64,000 nucleotides of DNA from Proteocatella sphenisci DSM 23131 (lineage in GTDB: Bacteria > Bacillota > Clostridia > Peptostreptococcales > Filifactoraceae), in NCBI RefSeq assembly GCF_000423525.1, contig NZ_AUID01000002.1, forward strand, positions 1-64,000, in the 5' to 3' direction. Below the pieces are notes generated by a model. That model saw only the letters and a program-made list of their open reading frames with translations, did not search any database and had not been told where the DNA came from. Of the stretch, positions 38,685 through 47,830 are shown piece after piece. Each line of letters begins with the position of its first letter. The stretch's first letter is position 1. The position numbers were made by a program, and so were the translations under genes.

Positions 38685-39260
38685 TTATTTTAAATTGTCA
38701 ATAGCATACTGAGCTTCTTGGTTAGTGAATTTTTCTCCATAATCTGATATTAATTGATCATATATTGCACTAGGTGACATTGCCATTGTTTCTTGATACG
38801 ATTCAGCTTTTTTTAAAGCATTATACTTCCAGTCTGCATCAATGTTATCAATTGCATACTGAGCCGCTTCTTTTGAAAATTTTTCACCATATTCTGATAC
38901 TAGCTGATCATATAATCCAACTTTAGACATATGCATTGTATCATCATATATTTCAGCCTTTTTTAAAGCAGATTTGTATTCTGTTGGTACATCTGATACT
39001 TGAGTCTCTTGTGTTTCAGATGCTGGTGGAGCAGATGTTTCAATTTGTGATGTATTATCGCCACTATATTCGGGATCAGAAGTCATCTCCGTACCTGGCC
39101 CTGTTGCTCCAATTCCGATAAATATAACAATTGCCCAAACCCACCATTTTTTATAAAACGGTTTCTTGTTTTTTGCCCCGCAAGATGGACAACTTTTTGC
39201 GTTTTTTGCGATTTCCCCTCCGCAAGTTTTACAATTGATCAAATTTTTGTTACGTTCCAT
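38685..39260 (-). CDS. Zinc-ribbon membrane protein with two Ltp-type repeats
   Basis: A 191-aa protein with three parts. A cytoplasmic zinc ribbon at the N-terminus has Cys10, Cys13, Cys24 and Cys27 (CKTCGG and CPSCGA). One transmembrane helix follows at about 39-53. After a Ser/Thr/Glu-rich linker come two 44-residue repeats (97-140 and 147-190), each built as ALKKAE-Y--TM-MS---YDQL-S-YGEKF---AQYAIDN. These repeats match the Ltp (PF07553-type) helix-turn-helix module of host-surface lipoproteins; the Ltp protein of Streptococcus thermophilus phage TP-J34 gives superinfection exclusion. Here the anchor is a helix and not a lipobox. Last gene of the accessory region. Confidence 0.8.
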   Translation of the reverse strand: MERNKNLINCKTCGGEIAKNAKSCPSCGAKNKKPFYKKWWVWAIVIFIGIGATGPGTEMTSDPEYSGDNTSQIETSAPPASETQETQVSDVPTEYKSALKKAEIYDDTMHMSKVGLYDQLVSEYGEKFSKEAAQYAIDNIDADWKYNALKKAESYQETMAMSPSAIYDQLISDYGEKFTNQEAQYAIDNLK

Positions 39261-39403: not shown

Positions 39404-40924
39404 TTACTTTGTATTTTTTAGCAGCTTATCTTTTCTCTTTTCAAATTCAGAAGATTGAACATCCATACTTAATCCACTATAGTATTCTATTGCTCTTTCA
39501 CAGATTTCAATTGATTTTTGAATCTCATTTCTTTTCTCATAAATTATTGACAGTCTCTTGAATGCCGGAATTACACAATCAAACTTACCAATTTCATTTA
39601 TTTCTTTTTCAATCTGGCTTTCAGAATAAATTCCCCTTAGCATTTTAATTTCTTTTCTTCTTGAATTAATGTAACTTTTCTGCAATTTATCCAAGTTGTT
39701 AATGTCTTCTAAGCAATAATAAATGCATTTTTCGAGATATTTTTCGTCAAGATTTCTGTATTTATAATAAAAATCCAGTAGCTGATTATAATCAAAATGG
39801 ACTTCGTATCCATTGCTTTTATTTTTATCCATCTGATCTATCAAAAATCTCTCTTTCGTATAATCAAATGAGGGGACAATGACTTCCTTTTTCGATTCTT
39901 TTTTCTTTTCCAATTTTCCTGTTTTTCTTAGTTGCACGAGCTTTTCTTTTACATCTTCATGTGTCTCATCCAGTAAATCATATACAGCTTTCTTAAACTT
40001 AAAATTTTCAGTAAGTAATGGAACCTCTATGGTTTCATTGAACAAAGATGTATTTGCAAATATATGAGTTCCTTCTTTTCTCAATTTGTAAAACTCTTTA
40101 TCCTTTATAAATCTGTCTATCTCTAAATTTTCTGCTGTGTATTCCTTATAAATATTTGATGTTAAGGTTTCTTCAAATATTTCCGAATAATTTTTTATAT
40201 AATTATTTTTCGTGAATTCAAAAGACTTGTGCATTCTCATTATGTCTTTAGCATATAATGGAATATTCAAGCTATAGTTGCAAAGAAGAAAAAGATTATC
40301 TGAGAAATTATATTCGTGATCCCGATCAAGAGAATTGATAAACATCTGAACAAGATCCACGTTTTGGCGATACAGGCAGGTTAATATAAGAGCATTCCCT
40401 GAGTAATTCTGGAATGAATTATTCTTGTGAACATCCCTGAGCTTTAGAATTACATCAAATGCTTTTTTATAGTCTCCTGAAAACAAATGCCTCTCCAGTC
40501 CGTAATACAGAATAAATACATATCCTATATCAATTCTACTGTCATAGGGATTCTCAAGCAGTTTCCAATACACCCCTCTTTGCTCTTTGGACAGTTCACT
40601 ATAATTCGGATAGTACGGCGGCCTGTCTACTTTTGAAATATCTACATTTGTATTTATCGGCAAACTGCTATATATAAGACTTGGCTCCTTACTCATAAAA
40701 TTAAAAGATATTTCAAAACCATCAATTACAAATTTATCATTTTTATTATCTGGTAAATAATTTCGCTTTGGTCCATCAGCAATCCAAATCAAATCTTCTA
40801 AGTCGCTATGTACAGAAAGTGTTGTTAAAGCATTAAATTCGACTTCTTTATTTACCGAAATCAAAGAATTTTCAATAGTATTCTTGTTTTCGTTACTCTT
40901 AAACAATTTACTGAATAACCCCAT
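39404..40924 (-). CDS. TerB_N-domain protein in a restriction locus
   Basis: A 506-aa soluble protein. Residues 101-148 (RPPYYPNYSELSKEQRGVYW, then DIGYVFILYYGLERHLFSG) match the TerB_N domain, found beside TerB and in proteins of phage-defence and tellurite-related loci. The rest is helical and charged, with a Lys/Glu-rich linker near 340-360 and a C-terminal part (about 440-500) that resembles TPR-type helices (AFKRLSIIYEKRNEIQKSIE). No catalytic motif is seen. It starts 42 bases after the preceding ORF on the same strand, so it is probably part of the hsd operon. Confidence 0.72.
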   Translation of the reverse strand: MGLFSKLFKSNENKNTIENSLISVNKEVEFNALTTLSVHSDLEDLIWIADGPKRNYLPDNKNDKFVIDGFEISFNFMSKEPSLIYSSLPINTNVDISKVDRPPYYPNYSELSKEQRGVYWKLLENPYDSRIDIGYVFILYYGLERHLFSGDYKKAFDVILKLRDVHKNNSFQNYSGNALILTCLYRQNVDLVQMFINSLDRDHEYNFSDNLFLLCNYSLNIPLYAKDIMRMHKSFEFTKNNYIKNYSEIFEETLTSNIYKEYTAENLEIDRFIKDKEFYKLRKEGTHIFANTSLFNETIEVPLLTENFKFKKAVYDLLDETHEDVKEKLVQLRKTGKLEKKKESKKEVIVPSFDYTKERFLIDQMDKNKSNGYEVHFDYNQLLDFYYKYRNLDEKYLEKCIYYCLEDINNLDKLQKSYINSRRKEIKMLRGIYSESQIEKEINEIGKFDCVIPAFKRLSIIYEKRNEIQKSIEICERAIEYYSGLSMDVQSSEFEKRKDKLLKNTK

Positions 40925-40966: not shown

Positions 40967-41704
40967 TTACCGTTTTTTTCTCTTATCAATACCTCTTTTA
41001 ATTCCTTCATCTATTGCTTTTCTCTTTATTGACTTCATATCTTCACCCTTTACTTCCAATATTTCAATGTCTCTGAAGTCGTTTATTATATACAAAGTGC
41101 CTATGCAATCTATAAATATCTTATTGAAATTGAAATTTTCATGCAGCTCTATGCTATTCACTATTTCTATAATGTCAAACTCTTCAAGCAGTTGAGTGTG
41201 AGTAAAAATATACAGCCAGTGATCCTTGAATTTATGATGATTCTTGAGATGGTCATAGTAGATAGTATTAAGCTTTTCTGATTTATCCACTATACTTTTT
41301 TTAATAAGTTCGTGATGTATTTTGGTATCATATAAACCTTTGAAGTAGTCGAAAATTACCATATTTTCAAAGATTTCTATGTGGCCTTTCATTTTTTTGT
41401 TTCTGCTCTCCATCTTTTCTTTTATATACTGTGGAGGAAGATTTTTTCCAAAATATTCATTAATATACCTTCTTTGCTCTCCTTCTTTTTTTGATATCGC
41501 CTCCACGACTTCAATCCCTATTCCGAGTTGTTCACTTTGAAAGTCCGGAGAATCAAGATGATTTAAAGCCTTTAGCTTAGAGTCAAAACAGGTTTCTAAG
41601 GTAATCCTTGCGTAGCACTCAAAATAGTCTTTGCTGTACTTCTCATTTTCATATCCTTCTTTCATACCTGCCTCCAATTTAGAGCTTAATCCGCTTTTAC
41701 TCAT
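40967..41704 (-). CDS. Uncharacterised protein overlapping hsdR
   Basis: A 245-aa protein I do not recognise by name. The ATG at 41704 is chosen because it overlaps the hsdR stop as ATGAGTAA, giving eight bases of overlap and translational coupling; the in-frame extension to 41740 lies inside hsdR. Residues 51-70 (DSPDFQSEQLGIGIEVVEAI) resemble the D...E core of some PD-(D/E)XK nuclease-like proteins, but the expected lysine after the glutamate is not there. The C-terminus is very basic (KRKAIDEGIKRGIDKRKKR), suggesting nucleic-acid contact. Cytoplasmic; no membrane segment. Confidence 0.7.
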   Translation of the reverse strand: MSKSGLSSKLEAGMKEGYENEKYSKDYFECYARITLETCFDSKLKALNHLDSPDFQSEQLGIGIEVVEAISKKEGEQRRYINEYFGKNLPPQYIKEKMESRNKKMKGHIEIFENMVIFDYFKGLYDTKIHHELIKKSIVDKSEKLNTIYYDHLKNHHKFKDHWLYIFTHTQLLEEFDIIEIVNSIELHENFNFNKIFIDCIGTLYIINDFRDIEILEVKGEDMKSIKRKAIDEGIKRGIDKRKKR

Positions 41705-44700
41705 TCCTGAATCCTCTGTAAGCCTCTTTAGCAATCTCATTCATTATTACTGAATAGAAATTCTGATCCTCAAATAGCTTTTTGAATGCGTCCATCTGCT
41801 CTTCGTAGCACCCTTGAGCAACGTCTTCGAAAATCTTTGGAAATATACTTTCTGAAAAGACTTCGATACTGTTTTTCTTTGCATATCTTTTCAGTTTTTT
41901 GTTATCCTTTACTATTTTCCCATATATTGTTTCTACAATAACCTTGTCTCCATCAGAGAATATTCCAGCGAACTTGTCATTGATGTGATTTATTATATTC
42001 TCTAAAAGCTCATCTTTAACATCCTTATTCTTGTCAACATCAACGGTCTTAGTATTATCAATTACAGTATAATCTCCATTTCCTTCCATCACAATCTCAC
42101 CTTCGTATGTTTTTTCAAGCTTAAAAAACTCAAGTTTAATTTTATCGCTCAGATCAACGTTTTCTGACTGAGCTTTAGGAAGCAGTTTATCCATATACTT
42201 CAGGAAGTTGTATTCCTTCTGCAGCTCCTTATCAAACATCCTTGTTATCTGTGTTATATATGAATGCCATTTCACAAAATTCCTTATGGATCTTCTGTAT
42301 TTATACTGTTCCTCTTCATCCATAACTTCATAATTCTTTATCACAGGAGTGAACAGGCTTGTGATTTTGCCAAGATCCTTGTCTGTCTGCTTTGGCTTGT
42401 AGTATATCTTATTGAAATTCTCTACATCATCGTCATTGTAAAGCAAGAATTGCCTTATTAAGATTTTCAGATCATAAATCATGTTAACATTTATTTCTTC
42501 ATCAAGAACCGTACTCTTATAGAATGGTTCAAATGATTCTTTGATATCGTCTGCCTCGTTCACAAAATCCATTACGAAGGTATCAACTTTCCCTGGAGCT
42601 GTTCTGTTGAGCCTCGAAAGAGTCTGCACAGCCTTAACGCCAGTAAGTTTCTTGTCAACGAACATCGTATGAAGAAGTGGCTCGTCAAATCCTGTCTGGT
42701 ATTTTTCTGCTACTATGAGCATATTGAACTCATCTGAGTGAAATACCTCTGGTAGTTGTCTTTCACTTACTCTGCTGCCATCTTGCCTTATATTCAGACC
42801 TGGTTCTGTATATTCATCCACTCCGTCCTTTACTGTTCCAGAAAAAGCTACCAGAACATCCAAGTCCTTATATCCCCTGCTCTCAATATATCTCTTGAAT
42901 TCAAGGAAATAACGCACAGCATGAAGCCTTGATGCGGTAACAACCATAGCCTTTGCCTTGCCACCTATTTTCTTCTTTGTGACATCTCTGAAGTATTCAA
43001 CCATGATTGATGTCTTCTGCTGAAGATTATATGAATGCAGCGACTCATATCTCTTTATGGCTTTAACTGCTTCAGTCTGAGGCAGTTCAGGATTTTCAGG
43101 AGTATTTTTTGCTATCTTATAGCAGGTTTTATACGTCATGTAATTCGCAAGCACATCATGTATGAAGCCTTCTTCTATTGCCTGCTTCATGGAATATACA
43201 TGAAATGGCCTGAAAGTGCCGTCTTCATATCTCTGGCCAAACATTTCGAGAGTCTTCTGCTTTGGAGTGGCAGTAAATGCGAAAAACGAAAGATTTTTAT
43301 GTCTTCCATGACTTAGAAGCTCTTTTACAAGCTTGTCCTCAAAATCCTCTTCTTTAGACTCTTCTTCTCCTTCAATCCTCTCATATTCCAATAAAGCTTC
43401 TTCACTGTCTGCAAGGGCAGTTTTGAGCTTCTGAGCACTTGATCCAGTCTGTGATGAGTGAGCCTCATCGACTATGATTGCAAATCTTTTTCCCTTGTTA
43501 CTCTCAATTTCTTCATAAATAACAGGGAATTTCTGAAGAGTGGTCACTATTATTTTCTTTCCATCGTTTATCGCATCTCTCAGATCCTTTGAAGATTTCC
43601 CATCTCCTATTGTCTCGACAAGCCCAAACGTATGATCAAAGCTGCTTATTGTGTCCTGCAGCTGAGAATCAAGCACTTTTCTGTCTGTTACTACGATAAC
43701 AGAAGTAAATATAGAGTTGTTACACTCATCGTGAAGACTCGAAAGACGGTAGCTGCTCCATGCTATGGAGTTTGATTTCCCTGAGCCTGCACTGTGCTGT
43801 ATAAGGTAGTTCTTTCCAGATCCGTTTCTTTTCACATCATCCATTATCTTCGTAACTACATCGAGCTGATGATAACGTGGGAAAATCAATTTCTTGCTTG
43901 TTTTATATGTATCTTTTCCGTCTTTTGTTACCTTCTTTTTTTCTATGCTCACATGAAGGAATCTCTGAATTATATTGAGAAGAGATTCTTTTGTAAGTAC
44001 ATTTTCCCAAAGATAGGAAGTATTGTAACCATCAGGATTTTCAGGGTTTCCAGATCCCCCGACATTTCCCGCTCCTCCTGATCCCTGATTGAATGGCAGA
44101 AAGAATGTCTTATCTCCATTGAGTTGCGTGGCCATAGCTATTTCATAGAGATCAACTGCGAAATATACAAGGAATCTTCTGTTGAACTGAAAGCAAAGCT
44201 CCCTGTGATTACGATCTTCCCTGAACTGCTTCATTGCATTTTCAACAGACTGCCCTGTAATCTGATTTTTAAGCTCAAGTGCAACCAGAGCAATACCATT
44301 CAGGCTGAGCACCATGTCTATCGTATTGTTATTCTCATTGGAATATGCAAACTGGCGTGTAACGGTCATTATGTTTGCCTTATAACCATTTACGAGTTTG
44401 TCATTAAGAGTTGATTCAGGCTTGAAATAGCAAACTTTGAACTTAACTCCCCTGTCGTTTATTCCGCTTCTAAGCACATGAAGCAGCCCATGAGTCGAAG
44501 TTTCCTCGCAGAAACGCTTCAAAAACTTCTTTTCTGAGTCATTGCCATATATCTTCTCATATCTTTCCCACTCGTTCTCCTGAGTAATTTTTATAAATGA
44601 CAAAAGCTTGTGCAGATCTACTGCATTTAACTTGTCATAGGTGGACATATCCCCTTTGATATATCCACCTGAATTTATGAGAGATGTTTCTATGTCTTGT

Positions 44701-44726
44701 TCAAATCGTATTTCTTTATATTCCAA
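41697..44726 (-). CDS. hsdR: Type I restriction endonuclease, R subunit
   Basis: Translocating nuclease subunit of a type I restriction system, 1009 aa, full length. The N-terminal nuclease domain has the PD-(D/E)XK residues Asp137, Glu151 and Lys153 (TIDMVL...LELKNQ). The SF2 motor has Walker A HSAGSGKS (311-318), the DEAH box IIVDEAHSSQTG, FAFTATPKQKT and the motif VI region QTLSRLNRTAPGK. The C-terminal helical domain binds the methylase core in relatives. It follows hsdS by 31 bases and appears intact and active. Confidence 0.96.
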   Translation of the reverse strand: MEYKEIRFEQDIETSLINSGGYIKGDMSTYDKLNAVDLHKLLSFIKITQENEWERYEKIYGNDSEKKFLKRFCEETSTHGLLHVLRSGINDRGVKFKVCYFKPESTLNDKLVNGYKANIMTVTRQFAYSNENNNTIDMVLSLNGIALVALELKNQITGQSVENAMKQFREDRNHRELCFQFNRRFLVYFAVDLYEIAMATQLNGDKTFFLPFNQGSGGAGNVGGSGNPENPDGYNTSYLWENVLTKESLLNIIQRFLHVSIEKKKVTKDGKDTYKTSKKLIFPRYHQLDVVTKIMDDVKRNGSGKNYLIQHSAGSGKSNSIAWSSYRLSSLHDECNNSIFTSVIVVTDRKVLDSQLQDTISSFDHTFGLVETIGDGKSSKDLRDAINDGKKIIVTTLQKFPVIYEEIESNKGKRFAIIVDEAHSSQTGSSAQKLKTALADSEEALLEYERIEGEEESKEEDFEDKLVKELLSHGRHKNLSFFAFTATPKQKTLEMFGQRYEDGTFRPFHVYSMKQAIEEGFIHDVLANYMTYKTCYKIAKNTPENPELPQTEAVKAIKRYESLHSYNLQQKTSIMVEYFRDVTKKKIGGKAKAMVVTASRLHAVRYFLEFKRYIESRGYKDLDVLVAFSGTVKDGVDEYTEPGLNIRQDGSRVSERQLPEVFHSDEFNMLIVAEKYQTGFDEPLLHTMFVDKKLTGVKAVQTLSRLNRTAPGKVDTFVMDFVNEADDIKESFEPFYKSTVLDEEINVNMIYDLKILIRQFLLYNDDDVENFNKIYYKPKQTDKDLGKITSLFTPVIKNYEVMDEEEQYKYRRSIRNFVKWHSYITQITRMFDKELQKEYNFLKYMDKLLPKAQSENVDLSDKIKLEFFKLEKTYEGEIVMEGNGDYTVIDNTKTVDVDKNKDVKDELLENIINHINDKFAGIFSDGDKVIVETIYGKIVKDNKKLKRYAKKNSIEVFSESIFPKIFEDVAQGCYEEQMDAFKKLFEDQNFYSVIMNEIAKEAYRGFRNE

Positions 44727-44757: not shown

Positions 44758-46023
44758 TTAGTCTACTGCTCTTTTTCCTGTTACACATTCATATATTAAT
44801 GATTTTTTGTAGGTTTCAAGGTCTGATAGTAAGGCTTCTTTTTGAGATATAAGGCTATCTATTTCGGTACATTTTCGATGTATGAAATTTGCAATTTCTT
44901 TTTGTTCTTCAAATGTCGGTACTGGTAGATAAAAATTAATAAAAGGCTCCGTTTGTAATCGCCATCTTCCAAGATTTGAAACCCCTTGTCCTAAACCGTA
45001 AAATATTCTATTTGTATAACAAATTTGAAATATATTCTTATAATATTCTTTCGAATAATTAACACCCTGTTTCATTCTAAAAACTCTATAATCTGGACTC
45101 GTAACACCATCATATTCTGACAAATCAATCCATCCTGTAAGTAAGTCCATATGATTCATAGCAAAATCACCCTTATATACAAACTGATATTTGCTATAAT
45201 CAGATGATAATTGACCGTCATTTGATATGATATCTTTTACTTTTAGTCCCTGCTGTGTAATTGAGAGTACATCATAGCCGAGTTGTCCTGATATTCTCTT
45301 CAGTATTTTAAAAATATACTTTATTTTCTTCACTTCCCAATGCTTGGGTATCTCTCCAATCCACTCTATCCCACTATCTTTCATTTCTACATCAGGATTC
45401 AAGCCCTTTGTTACTGCTTCTGTGATCAGAGATTGCTTGTATTTCTTATATTCCTCTATTGATTCTCTTGTTTTTTCAAGGATATGGTCTATTTCAGATA
45501 CCTTCTGGTCGAGGAAGTTGGCTATTTTTTGTTGTTCATTTATTGGTGGGGTAGGTATTATTATATTTTTTTGGTTTTGAGAATTTAGGATTTGAACAAC
45601 ATTACCAGTAGAGTAATACCAATGTTGTTCTTCTTGAGTGCTTAAATAATATAAGCCATATTTCCATTGAATTATGTTTTCATCAAAATTAATAGCATTA
45701 ATTTGTTGATTGTAAGCTACTTCTTCCTGAGAATACCCGAACTTTCCAATGCTACCAATGCAACAAATTAATGGTGTATTTGGTTTTGCTATCCTTGCTT
45801 TAGCATATCCAATTTCATTTATTCTTTCTTTTGTATCTACTATTGGTATAAATTTGTTAAGATTGTCGGGTTTAACCCATATCAATAAACCCTCATCATA
45901 ATAATTTTCATTTCCTTGCATAGACGGAGTGTTACCTGTTTGTATCGAACATATTTTTCCTAATGCAGCAGCTCCCCAATCCTCTGGTATTTCACCTATC
46001 CATTCAATCCCTGAATCTTTCAT
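44758..46023 (-). CDS. hsdS: Type I restriction specificity subunit S
   Basis: DNA-recognition subunit, about 421 aa, with two target-recognition domains (about 15-165 and 225-370) and two conserved helical spacers (QQKIANFLDQKVSEIDHI and EQKEIANFIHRKCTEIDSL). Each half begins with MKDSGIEWIGEIP (residues 1 and 214), which shows the internal duplication. The start is uncertain: ATG at 46023 gives the typical family N-terminus, while an in-frame GTG at 46044 would overlap hsdM by 17 bases. Neither has a strong ribosome-binding site, so coupling to hsdM is likely. The recognition sequence cannot be read from the protein. Confidence 0.94.
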   Translation of the reverse strand: MKDSGIEWIGEIPEDWGAAALGKICSIQTGNTPSMQGNENYYDEGLLIWVKPDNLNKFIPIVDTKERINEIGYAKARIAKPNTPLICCIGSIGKFGYSQEEVAYNQQINAINFDENIIQWKYGLYYLSTQEEQHWYYSTGNVVQILNSQNQKNIIIPTPPINEQQKIANFLDQKVSEIDHILEKTRESIEEYKKYKQSLITEAVTKGLNPDVEMKDSGIEWIGEIPKHWEVKKIKYIFKILKRISGQLGYDVLSITQQGLKVKDIISNDGQLSSDYSKYQFVYKGDFAMNHMDLLTGWIDLSEYDGVTSPDYRVFRMKQGVNYSKEYYKNIFQICYTNRIFYGLGQGVSNLGRWRLQTEPFINFYLPVPTFEEQKEIANFIHRKCTEIDSLISQKEALLSDLETYKKSLIYECVTGKRAVD

Positions 46024-46027
46024 TTTT

Positions 46028-47830
46028 CTACTCAACTGATTCACCGTCCTTAGAGAATAACGCTCTGAGAGAAGACATAAGGTCTGTTTCCATAGCTACT
46101 ATTCTTTCTGCTACTCTATCTGCTTTCTCTGGTGCCTCGTATTTATAGAAATATCTTGTAAAAGGAATTTCATAGCCTATTTTGGTCTTATTTTTATCTA
46201 TCCATGCATCAGGATTGTATGGTATCACTTCTTTCTTGAAGTATTCTTCGATTACCTCATCTTTTTCTCTTCCAAAAATCATCGGAACACTTTCAGTGTC
46301 ACGCTTTGAGGTGTCTGCTGATTTCTTTCCACTTTTCTTTTGTATCTTTCCATCTTCATCGTAAACTGGAGTCTCAACTGTTATTTTGTAATATCCAAAA
46401 TCTTCATTCTTGAATACTTTAGACTCTACTGTTTTTCCTTCATGTTCATATGTCTTGTTCTGGAATTCTCCATATGCAGCCACTATAACTTTTCTGCATT
46501 CTTCCGATAAATCAACACGTTTAAATCCAAGTGATTTTCTTCTTTTTTCATACATATTTGAAGCATCTATGAGCTGGATCTGTCCTGCTCTTTTTGAAGA
46601 TTTATTTTTAGATAAAATCCAGATATATGTTGTAATACCTGTATTATAAAATAGATCTGATGGAAGCTGGACTATTGCTTCAATCCAATCATTTTCTATA
46701 AAATACCTTCTTATTTCAGATGGGCCTGATTCTGCATCTCCTGAGAACAGAGGGGAGCCATTGTGTATTATAGCCATCTTTCCAGTGTCATTGAGTTTTT
46801 TCGCTCCATTGAGAGTAAAGAGCATCTGCCCGTCACTTATTTTTGGAAGTCCTGGTGAAAATCTGCCTTTTTCTCCAAGCTTGTTTTCTGATTCAACTCC
46901 GTTCTTCTGTGCCTTCCAGTCTACGCCAAATGGAGGGTTTGAGATTATATAATCAAATGTATATCCTGAGAACTGATCATTTGAAAGAGTGTCTCCAAAA
47001 CGCATATTGCTTGAGTTTCCACCTCTTATTATCATATCTGCCTTTGCTATCGCATATGTCTCAGGATTGAATTCCTGACCAAATAGAGTTACTTCTGCTT
47101 CTGAGTCAAGCTCTTTTAGTCTTTCCTCCATTGCAGTAAGCATCTGAGATGTTCCCATAGTCATATCATATACAGTCTTTACAACGCCTTCTTCCTGAAG
47201 CATATTTCTTTCCTCTGCAACAAGAAGGTCTGTCATGGTGTATATTATATCTCTTGCCGTAAAGTGGGCTCCTGCCTCTTCGTTATAACTCTCTGAGAAT
47301 TTTCTCACGAGCTCCTCGAAAATATAACCCATATCAGTAGTAGTTATAAGGTCTGCACCCATATATGCATTAGACTTGTTGAATTCCTGAATTACGTAAA
47401 ATAACTTGTCATCCTCTTTTGAATTTCCGACAAGGTCTGCTATAGTATTTTCAAATTTAAAGTTCTTCATTATGTCCAGAATGTTATCGGAAAACCCTGC
47501 GATGAACGACTTGAAATTATCTTCTATATGTTCTGGTTCATTCAGTAGATTACTAAACGTAAACGGGCTTGTATTATAGAACTCATATCCTGCAGCTTTC
47601 TTCAAAAATCCATCTCTGACTTCAAAGTTCTTTACTTCTTCATATTTTTTCATTACTGCTTCTTTTGTAGGCTCAAGAGTGTCATTAAGCCTCTTTAGGA
47701 GAGTCATAGGAAGAATAACCTTGCCATACTCATGTGGCTTGAATGTTCCTCTAATAATGTCTGCAACTCCCCAGATCATGTTCGCTTTTTCTGAAATATT
47801 AATATCTGTCTGTTTATGTAAAGCTGTCAT
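46028..47830 (-). CDS. hsdM: Type I restriction N6-adenine methyltransferase, M subunit
   Basis: Methylase subunit of 600 aa. An N-terminal helical domain (about 12-160) precedes the SAM domain with catalytic motif IV NPPFG (SNPPFGVDWK), typical of N6-adenine methylation. The SAM motif I region reads VYDMTMGTSQML, unlike the commoner DPTCGSGGML form; I believe a subgroup of HsdM shares this variant. The C-terminal part has IRRYFIENDWIEAIVQLP. First gene of the hsdM-hsdS-hsdR operon, with ATG and GGAGG upstream. Confidence 0.95.
   Translation of the reverse strand: MTALHKQTDINISEKANMIWGVADIIRGTFKPHEYGKVILPMTLLKRLNDTLEPTKEAVMKKYEEVKNFEVRDGFLKKAAGYEFYNTSPFTFSNLLNEPEHIEDNFKSFIAGFSDNILDIMKNFKFENTIADLVGNSKEDDKLFYVIQEFNKSNAYMGADLITTTDMGYIFEELVRKFSESYNEEAGAHFTARDIIYTMTDLLVAEERNMLQEEGVVKTVYDMTMGTSQMLTAMEERLKELDSEAEVTLFGQEFNPETYAIAKADMIIRGGNSSNMRFGDTLSNDQFSGYTFDYIISNPPFGVDWKAQKNGVESENKLGEKGRFSPGLPKISDGQMLFTLNGAKKLNDTGKMAIIHNGSPLFSGDAESGPSEIRRYFIENDWIEAIVQLPSDLFYNTGITTYIWILSKNKSSKRAGQIQLIDASNMYEKRRKSLGFKRVDLSEECRKVIVAAYGEFQNKTYEHEGKTVESKVFKNEDFGYYKITVETPVYDEDGKIQKKSGKKSADTSKRDTESVPMIFGREKDEVIEEYFKKEVIPYNPDAWIDKNKTKIGYEIPFTRYFYKYEAPEKADRVAERIVAMETDLMSSLRALFSKDGESVE

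Follow-up and report, generated by a model that had tools for sequence, protein, structure and literature searches.

The protein encoded at 41704 to 40967 on the minus strand is probably a PD-(D/E)XK-type metal-dependent nuclease that serves as an accessory defence effector, independent of the HsdMSR complex whose genes precede it. It belongs to a family that is undescribed in the libraries searched (Pfam, NCBIfam, PADLOC and PHROGs). Members recur in or beside type I restriction loci and also occur away from type I genes. The fold, catalysis, substrate and defence role given here are predictions.

Gene and operon

The window is a 64,000-nucleotide stretch of Proteocatella sphenisci DSM 23131 (contig NZ_AUID01000002.1, positions 1 to 64,000). 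The target gene lies in it with four neighbours on the same strand.

46028-47830, minus strand: hsdM, methyltransferase subunit, 600 amino acids (Pfam; NPPF motif)
44758-46044, minus strand: hsdS, specificity subunit, 428 amino acids, GTG start (Pfam)
41697-44726, minus strand: hsdR, restriction subunit, 1009 amino acids, TTG start (Pfam; nuclease and helicase motifs intact)
41697-41704, minus strand: eight bases, ATGAGTAA, shared by the end of hsdR and the beginning of the target (sequence reading)
41704-40967, minus strand: target, predicted PD-(D/E)XK-like protein of 245 amino acids, family undescribed (ORF reading, residue alignment)
39404-40924, minus strand: fifth gene, TerB_N protein of 506 amino acids (Pfam; weakly similar to Shango SngA)

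The eight-base overlap between the end of hsdR and the target, described in an earlier note on this DNA, was confirmed and placed on the minus strand. hsdR closes with AAT GAG TAA, the target opens with ATG AGT AAA, and the letters common to both are ATGAGTAA. The plus strand over 40967-41704 is closed by stops. A ribosome-binding site (GAGGA) lies approximately 8 nt 5' of the ATG at 41704. An alternative in-frame start at 41740, which would give a protein of 257 amino acids, has no such site. Short gene overlaps are frequent in bacterial operons, so the overlap indicates co-expression and not the stoichiometric co-production that had been read into it.

The start of the TerB_N gene is 42 bases downstream of the target and has its own ribosome-binding site (AGGAG). 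No terminator-like sites were found between hsdR, the target and the TerB_N gene. Because of the hsdR/target overlap, the lack of such sites and the 42-base gap, the gene order is that of an apparent hsdM-hsdS-hsdR-target-TerB_N operon. A promoter scan scored no better than shuffled sequences. The HsdMSR system of the window looks intact, since Pfam matches and key motifs were present in HsdM, HsdS and HsdR, those of HsdR being D-x-ELK (nuclease), GSGKS, DEAH and TAT.

The TerB_N gene might serve this operon as another accessory and may encode a partner of the target. Its product resembled Shango SngA in PADLOC (E 6e-13); SngB and SngC were absent. A relative of it at locus L072 (9172-10758) adjoins a recombinase and phage-like genes. 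A further minus-strand gene of the window (38685-39260) encodes a zinc-ribbon and repeated Ltp lipoprotein domains, the Ltp family taking its name from a host cell surface-exposed lipoprotein.

The protein family

The family was collected by whole-genome searches which began with the target and were iterated with growing alignments. The first search counted relatives at 4/98, including the false match L004, a response-regulator/diguanylate-cyclase gene that was dropped. At class level 5 of 391 genomes had a relative and at phylum level 2 of 398, the window genome being counted in both; in one order it was 15 of 248. Scanning genome contigs brought in one Peptostreptococcaceae MAG, further MAGs from Lachnospiraceae and a distantly related protein from Paracoccus. 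Occurrence is therefore patchy, at approximately 1-6% of genomes depending on the group. No relatives were found in plasmid, phage and viral-contig collections.

The family comprises 28 loci (the window and 27 others) with 29 sequence pieces matching the family profile; the full alignment contains 24 members of complete length. Relatives are mostly 20-30% identical. Two copies are broken: that of L012 (9986-10656) is split across two reading frames and that of L014 (9998-10198) ends early, after the putative active-site strand.

The target, its relatives and the family consensus gave nothing above chance against Pfam, NCBIfam, PADLOC and PHROGs. The best Pfam match of the target, a viral nuclear antigen, did not reach the cut-off of that family. 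None of 13 members matched any of 5027 PADLOC models at E values up to 1; PADLOC does not flag the family because the curated libraries searched lack it. Neither one sequence nor two profiles gave a meaningful match when run against PDB sequences, and none of the library profiles for PD-(D/E)XK nucleases recognises the family.

Putative active site

Only seven positions are near-invariant across the 28 loci. P53, D54 and E65 are invariant (28/28), as are K141 and L164 (27/27), while G63 is kept in 27/28 and E29 in 26/28. The residue order is a helix Glu, PD, hydrophobic-Glu-Val-Thr, a later-helix Lys and then a strand. E29 lies in a predicted helix (21-40) and matches the motif I acidic residue of PD-(D/E)XK nucleases. 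The motif II Asp (in PD) and the motif III acidic residue are present in all 28 members. The putative catalytic set would thus be E29 (first helix), D54 (PD motif), E65 (EV[T/V] motif) and K141 (later helix).

The earlier note had likened the segment DSPDF...GIGIEVVEA, residues 51-69 of the target, to a PD-(D/E)XK core without its expected lysine. The likeness held for P53, D54 and E65; structure comparison gave no significant match. The lysine is indeed absent two residues past E65, where Thr (21), Val (6) or Ser (1) stands in the 28 members, but an invariant lysine is found elsewhere. K141 lies approximately 75 residues after E65, inside a predicted helix in both models, and appears to be a stand-in for the lysine missing from beta3. 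This downstream lysine would account for the lack of one at the motif III position. Judged from the aligned residues, the set is that of the PD-(D/E)XK motifs in displaced-lysine form only. The label "PD-(D/E)XK-like" is used because fold and activity are predicted only.

The strongly basic tail reported for the target was also seen (11 K/R compared to 3 D/E in the final 22 residues). It is particular to the window copy and not common to the family, and was rejected as a DNA-binding feature of the family.

Of the AlphaFold models, which the earlier note had proposed as a check, that of the target had a pLDDT of 46.5 and that of relative L016 64.9. In the L016 model the equivalent of K141 lies inside a helix (117-132), and the order of helices and strands is compatible with the proposed core at modest confidence. 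The hairpin carrying PD...E is among the least confident regions of both models. The check was compatible with the helix lysine and gave no significant structural match. Foldseek with the L016 model returned nothing significant. Comparison of this model with PDB chains gave no clear winner; yeast acetyl-CoA carboxylase domains scored highest (Z 7.1) and a bunyavirus cap-snatching nuclease scored Z 3.5. Profile-profile comparison of the family with HsdR N-termini, Cas4, Res and Uma2 was uninformative. It decides neither way because the link between Uma2 (one sequence) and the HsdR nuclease domain was also missed.

Genomic context of the family

Seven of the 28 loci place the member in or beside a type I system.

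Window: target directly after hsdR
L027 and L060: hsdM-x-member-hsdS-x-hsdR
L037 and L064: member directly after hsdM
L026: member between hsdS and hsdR
L040: member approximately 1.4 kb upstream of an hsdS-M-S-R run

The gene-neighbourhood survey that had been suggested placed the other 21 members elsewhere, a few of these loci being at contig ends and partly visible; most homologues thus lie away from hsdR, the outcome named beforehand as counting against an extra subunit. The nearest relatives of the target (L063, L067, L025 and L013) have no adjoining type I genes within the visible contigs. Coding overlaps with hsd genes span 8 bases in the window and L027 and 4 bases in L060, L037 and L064. 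At least four kinds of type I system carry the family, since HsdR identity is only approximately 23-26% among the window, L027, L040 and the L026/L037 kind.

The type I loci also carry AbiH (L037), a SIR2-like gene (L060) and an AAA_15 ATPase with Fic (L064). L026, L037 and L064 represent one type I kind (HsdR 79% identical between L026 and L037) in which the embedded genes vary, with Fic, AbiH, AAA ATPase and family members at differing positions. A small gene of approximately 170 amino acids adjoins hsdS in L026 (11906-12415) and L037 (8626-9141); the two are 36% identical. No Pfam family matched the L026 copy, and the gene might encode a HEPN-type partner. In L040 (9622-11746) the type I operon is followed by genes for a YgjP metallopeptidase and a caspase-like protease.

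Several other members are near defence genes, namely C5 methylases (L018), type III restriction (L036) and TIR (L014). In L065 (1-5375), cas1 and a cas4-like gene are found approximately 3 kb away from the member, and the locus opens with a stretch of CRISPR-like repeats. No defence gene was in view at L013, L067, L062 and L039.

The first 13 genomes held 8 strong hsdM genes in approximately 30 Mb, and 5 of the 13 members were beside one. With relatedness ignored, the binomial chance of 7 type I placements among 27 is 7e-9 at 1% per gene and 7e-5 at a generous 4%. When similar systems were collapsed (4/24) it is 9e-5 at 1% and 0.014 at 4%. On the family tree, the type I label has to change four times, and at least two of these changes are forced. 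We favour repeated entry of the family into type I operons.

Comparison with known systems

In COG4636/Uma2 the lysine has moved to the following helix, with a PD motif and an acidic residue on the next strand (PMC551604). The target family is like Uma2 (DUF820, COG4636, PF05685) in its PD, next-strand acidic residue and helix lysine, but its acidic-to-lysine gap of about 75 residues is much longer than in the one Uma2 sequence compared. The Uma2 profile (PF05685) matched neither the target, its relatives nor the family consensus. In DUF1626 and DUF506 the motif III lysine is replaced by Thr or another residue, and a basic residue lies in the following helix (PMC1913061). Thr is likewise usual (21/28) at this position in the target family, but there is no sequence match to these families and lengths and contexts differ.

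The family would also be like NucC, a CBASS effector, in its type, a small PD-(D/E)XK(-like) defence nuclease. Comparison of NucC with the L016 model was not significant (Z 4.9, rmsd 5.9, 126 residues, 10% identity), and no CBASS genes were seen at the loci here. PrrC is a tRNA-cutting nuclease built of an ATPase and a HEPN domain. Pfam finds neither of these in the target, which is of another protein family; like PrrC it would be a nuclease(-like) gene embedded in a type I locus. PrrC is embedded beside EcoPrrI as a type I accessory, and an anti-restriction peptide that inhibits the type I enzyme releases PrrC (PMC12707154). TgvAB, a GmrSD-like type IV system of VPI-2 in Vibrio cholerae, is embedded in a type I operon and is anti-phage without HsdR restriction (PMC11411939). 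The target is similarly an accessory gene carried inside a type I operon, but it is one small protein whereas TgvAB is two proteins with DUF262/DUF1524 (HNH-type). Neither DUF262 nor DUF1524 was matched in the target by Pfam.

Discussion

The favoured reading is that of a self-standing gene which entered type I operons repeatedly and became co-translated with them. The target would be made together with HsdMSR through the overlapping start and would cleave nucleic acid on its own account, either in attack on invading DNA or as a damage response. It would thereby complement type I restriction from outside the HsdMSR complex. The suggestion that the gene encodes an accessory nuclease tied to type I systems is supported by the recurrent linkage (7/28 loci), with the activity predicted from sequence. 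The extra subunit proposed with it found no such support.

A dedicated fourth subunit or modulator of the window HsdMSR would fit the translational overlap with hsdR and the similar hsdM or hsdS overlaps of L027, L060, L037 and L064. It is rejected as improbable because 21/28 members are unlinked, the nearest relatives (L063, L067, L025 and L013) among them, and because both the kind of system (at least four, with HsdR proteins only some 23-26% identical) and the gene position (after R, M-S interval, S-R interval, upstream) vary. A guard or abortive-infection nuclease deserves more weight, though it too is unlikely. Here HsdMSR would keep the target silent, and the target, once freed by phage inhibition or loss of HsdMSR, would cut nucleic acid of the host or the phage. 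The hsdR overlap would ensure co-production, PrrC and its anti-restriction peptide trigger (PMC12707154) are a precedent, and the neighbouring cargo of type I loci includes the abortive-infection types AbiH and SIR2. However, the 21 members without adjoining type I genes have no obvious partner and appear to be tolerated without an HsdMSR guard, and the type I systems that carry the family are diverse. An independent nuclease is favoured over a guarded one because solitary copies exist. A fuller version, in which an HsdMSR-gated displaced-lysine nuclease is released as a back-up when restriction is blocked and represents a new type I-coupled effector class, seems unlikely.

The family might instead have nothing to do with defence. 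A mobile or housekeeping-type nuclease that is here by chance, akin to the selfish spread that has been suggested for COG4636, would suit the patchy occurrence, the solitary copies and the broken copies of L012 and L014. Against it, members occur in type I loci far more often than chance predicts, this placement arose more than once, and the overlaps with hsd genes are tight; we regard this as the least probable of the explanations. The target could also be a pseudo-enzyme or have an unrelated fold, the conserved acidic residues and lysine serving another purpose. The absence of a significant profile or structure match to nuclease families would agree with this, but P-D, E, the helix K and the helix E persist across very divergent proteins in the manner of a catalytic-site signature, and such an explanation is improbable. 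The independent, displaced-lysine nuclease accordingly remains the reading that we prefer, as a probable one.

It is known that type I operons carry extra defence genes. The nuclease-like family described here has no entry in the curated libraries searched. Read by motifs alone, a nuclease whose catalytic lysine has been displaced can seem dead. By analogy the target most likely resembles TgvAB or PrrC as an accessory recruited to type I operons, though from another protein family. If it is an active nuclease, it would join the effectors to be screened against phage, and mutagenesis could be aimed at four precise residues.
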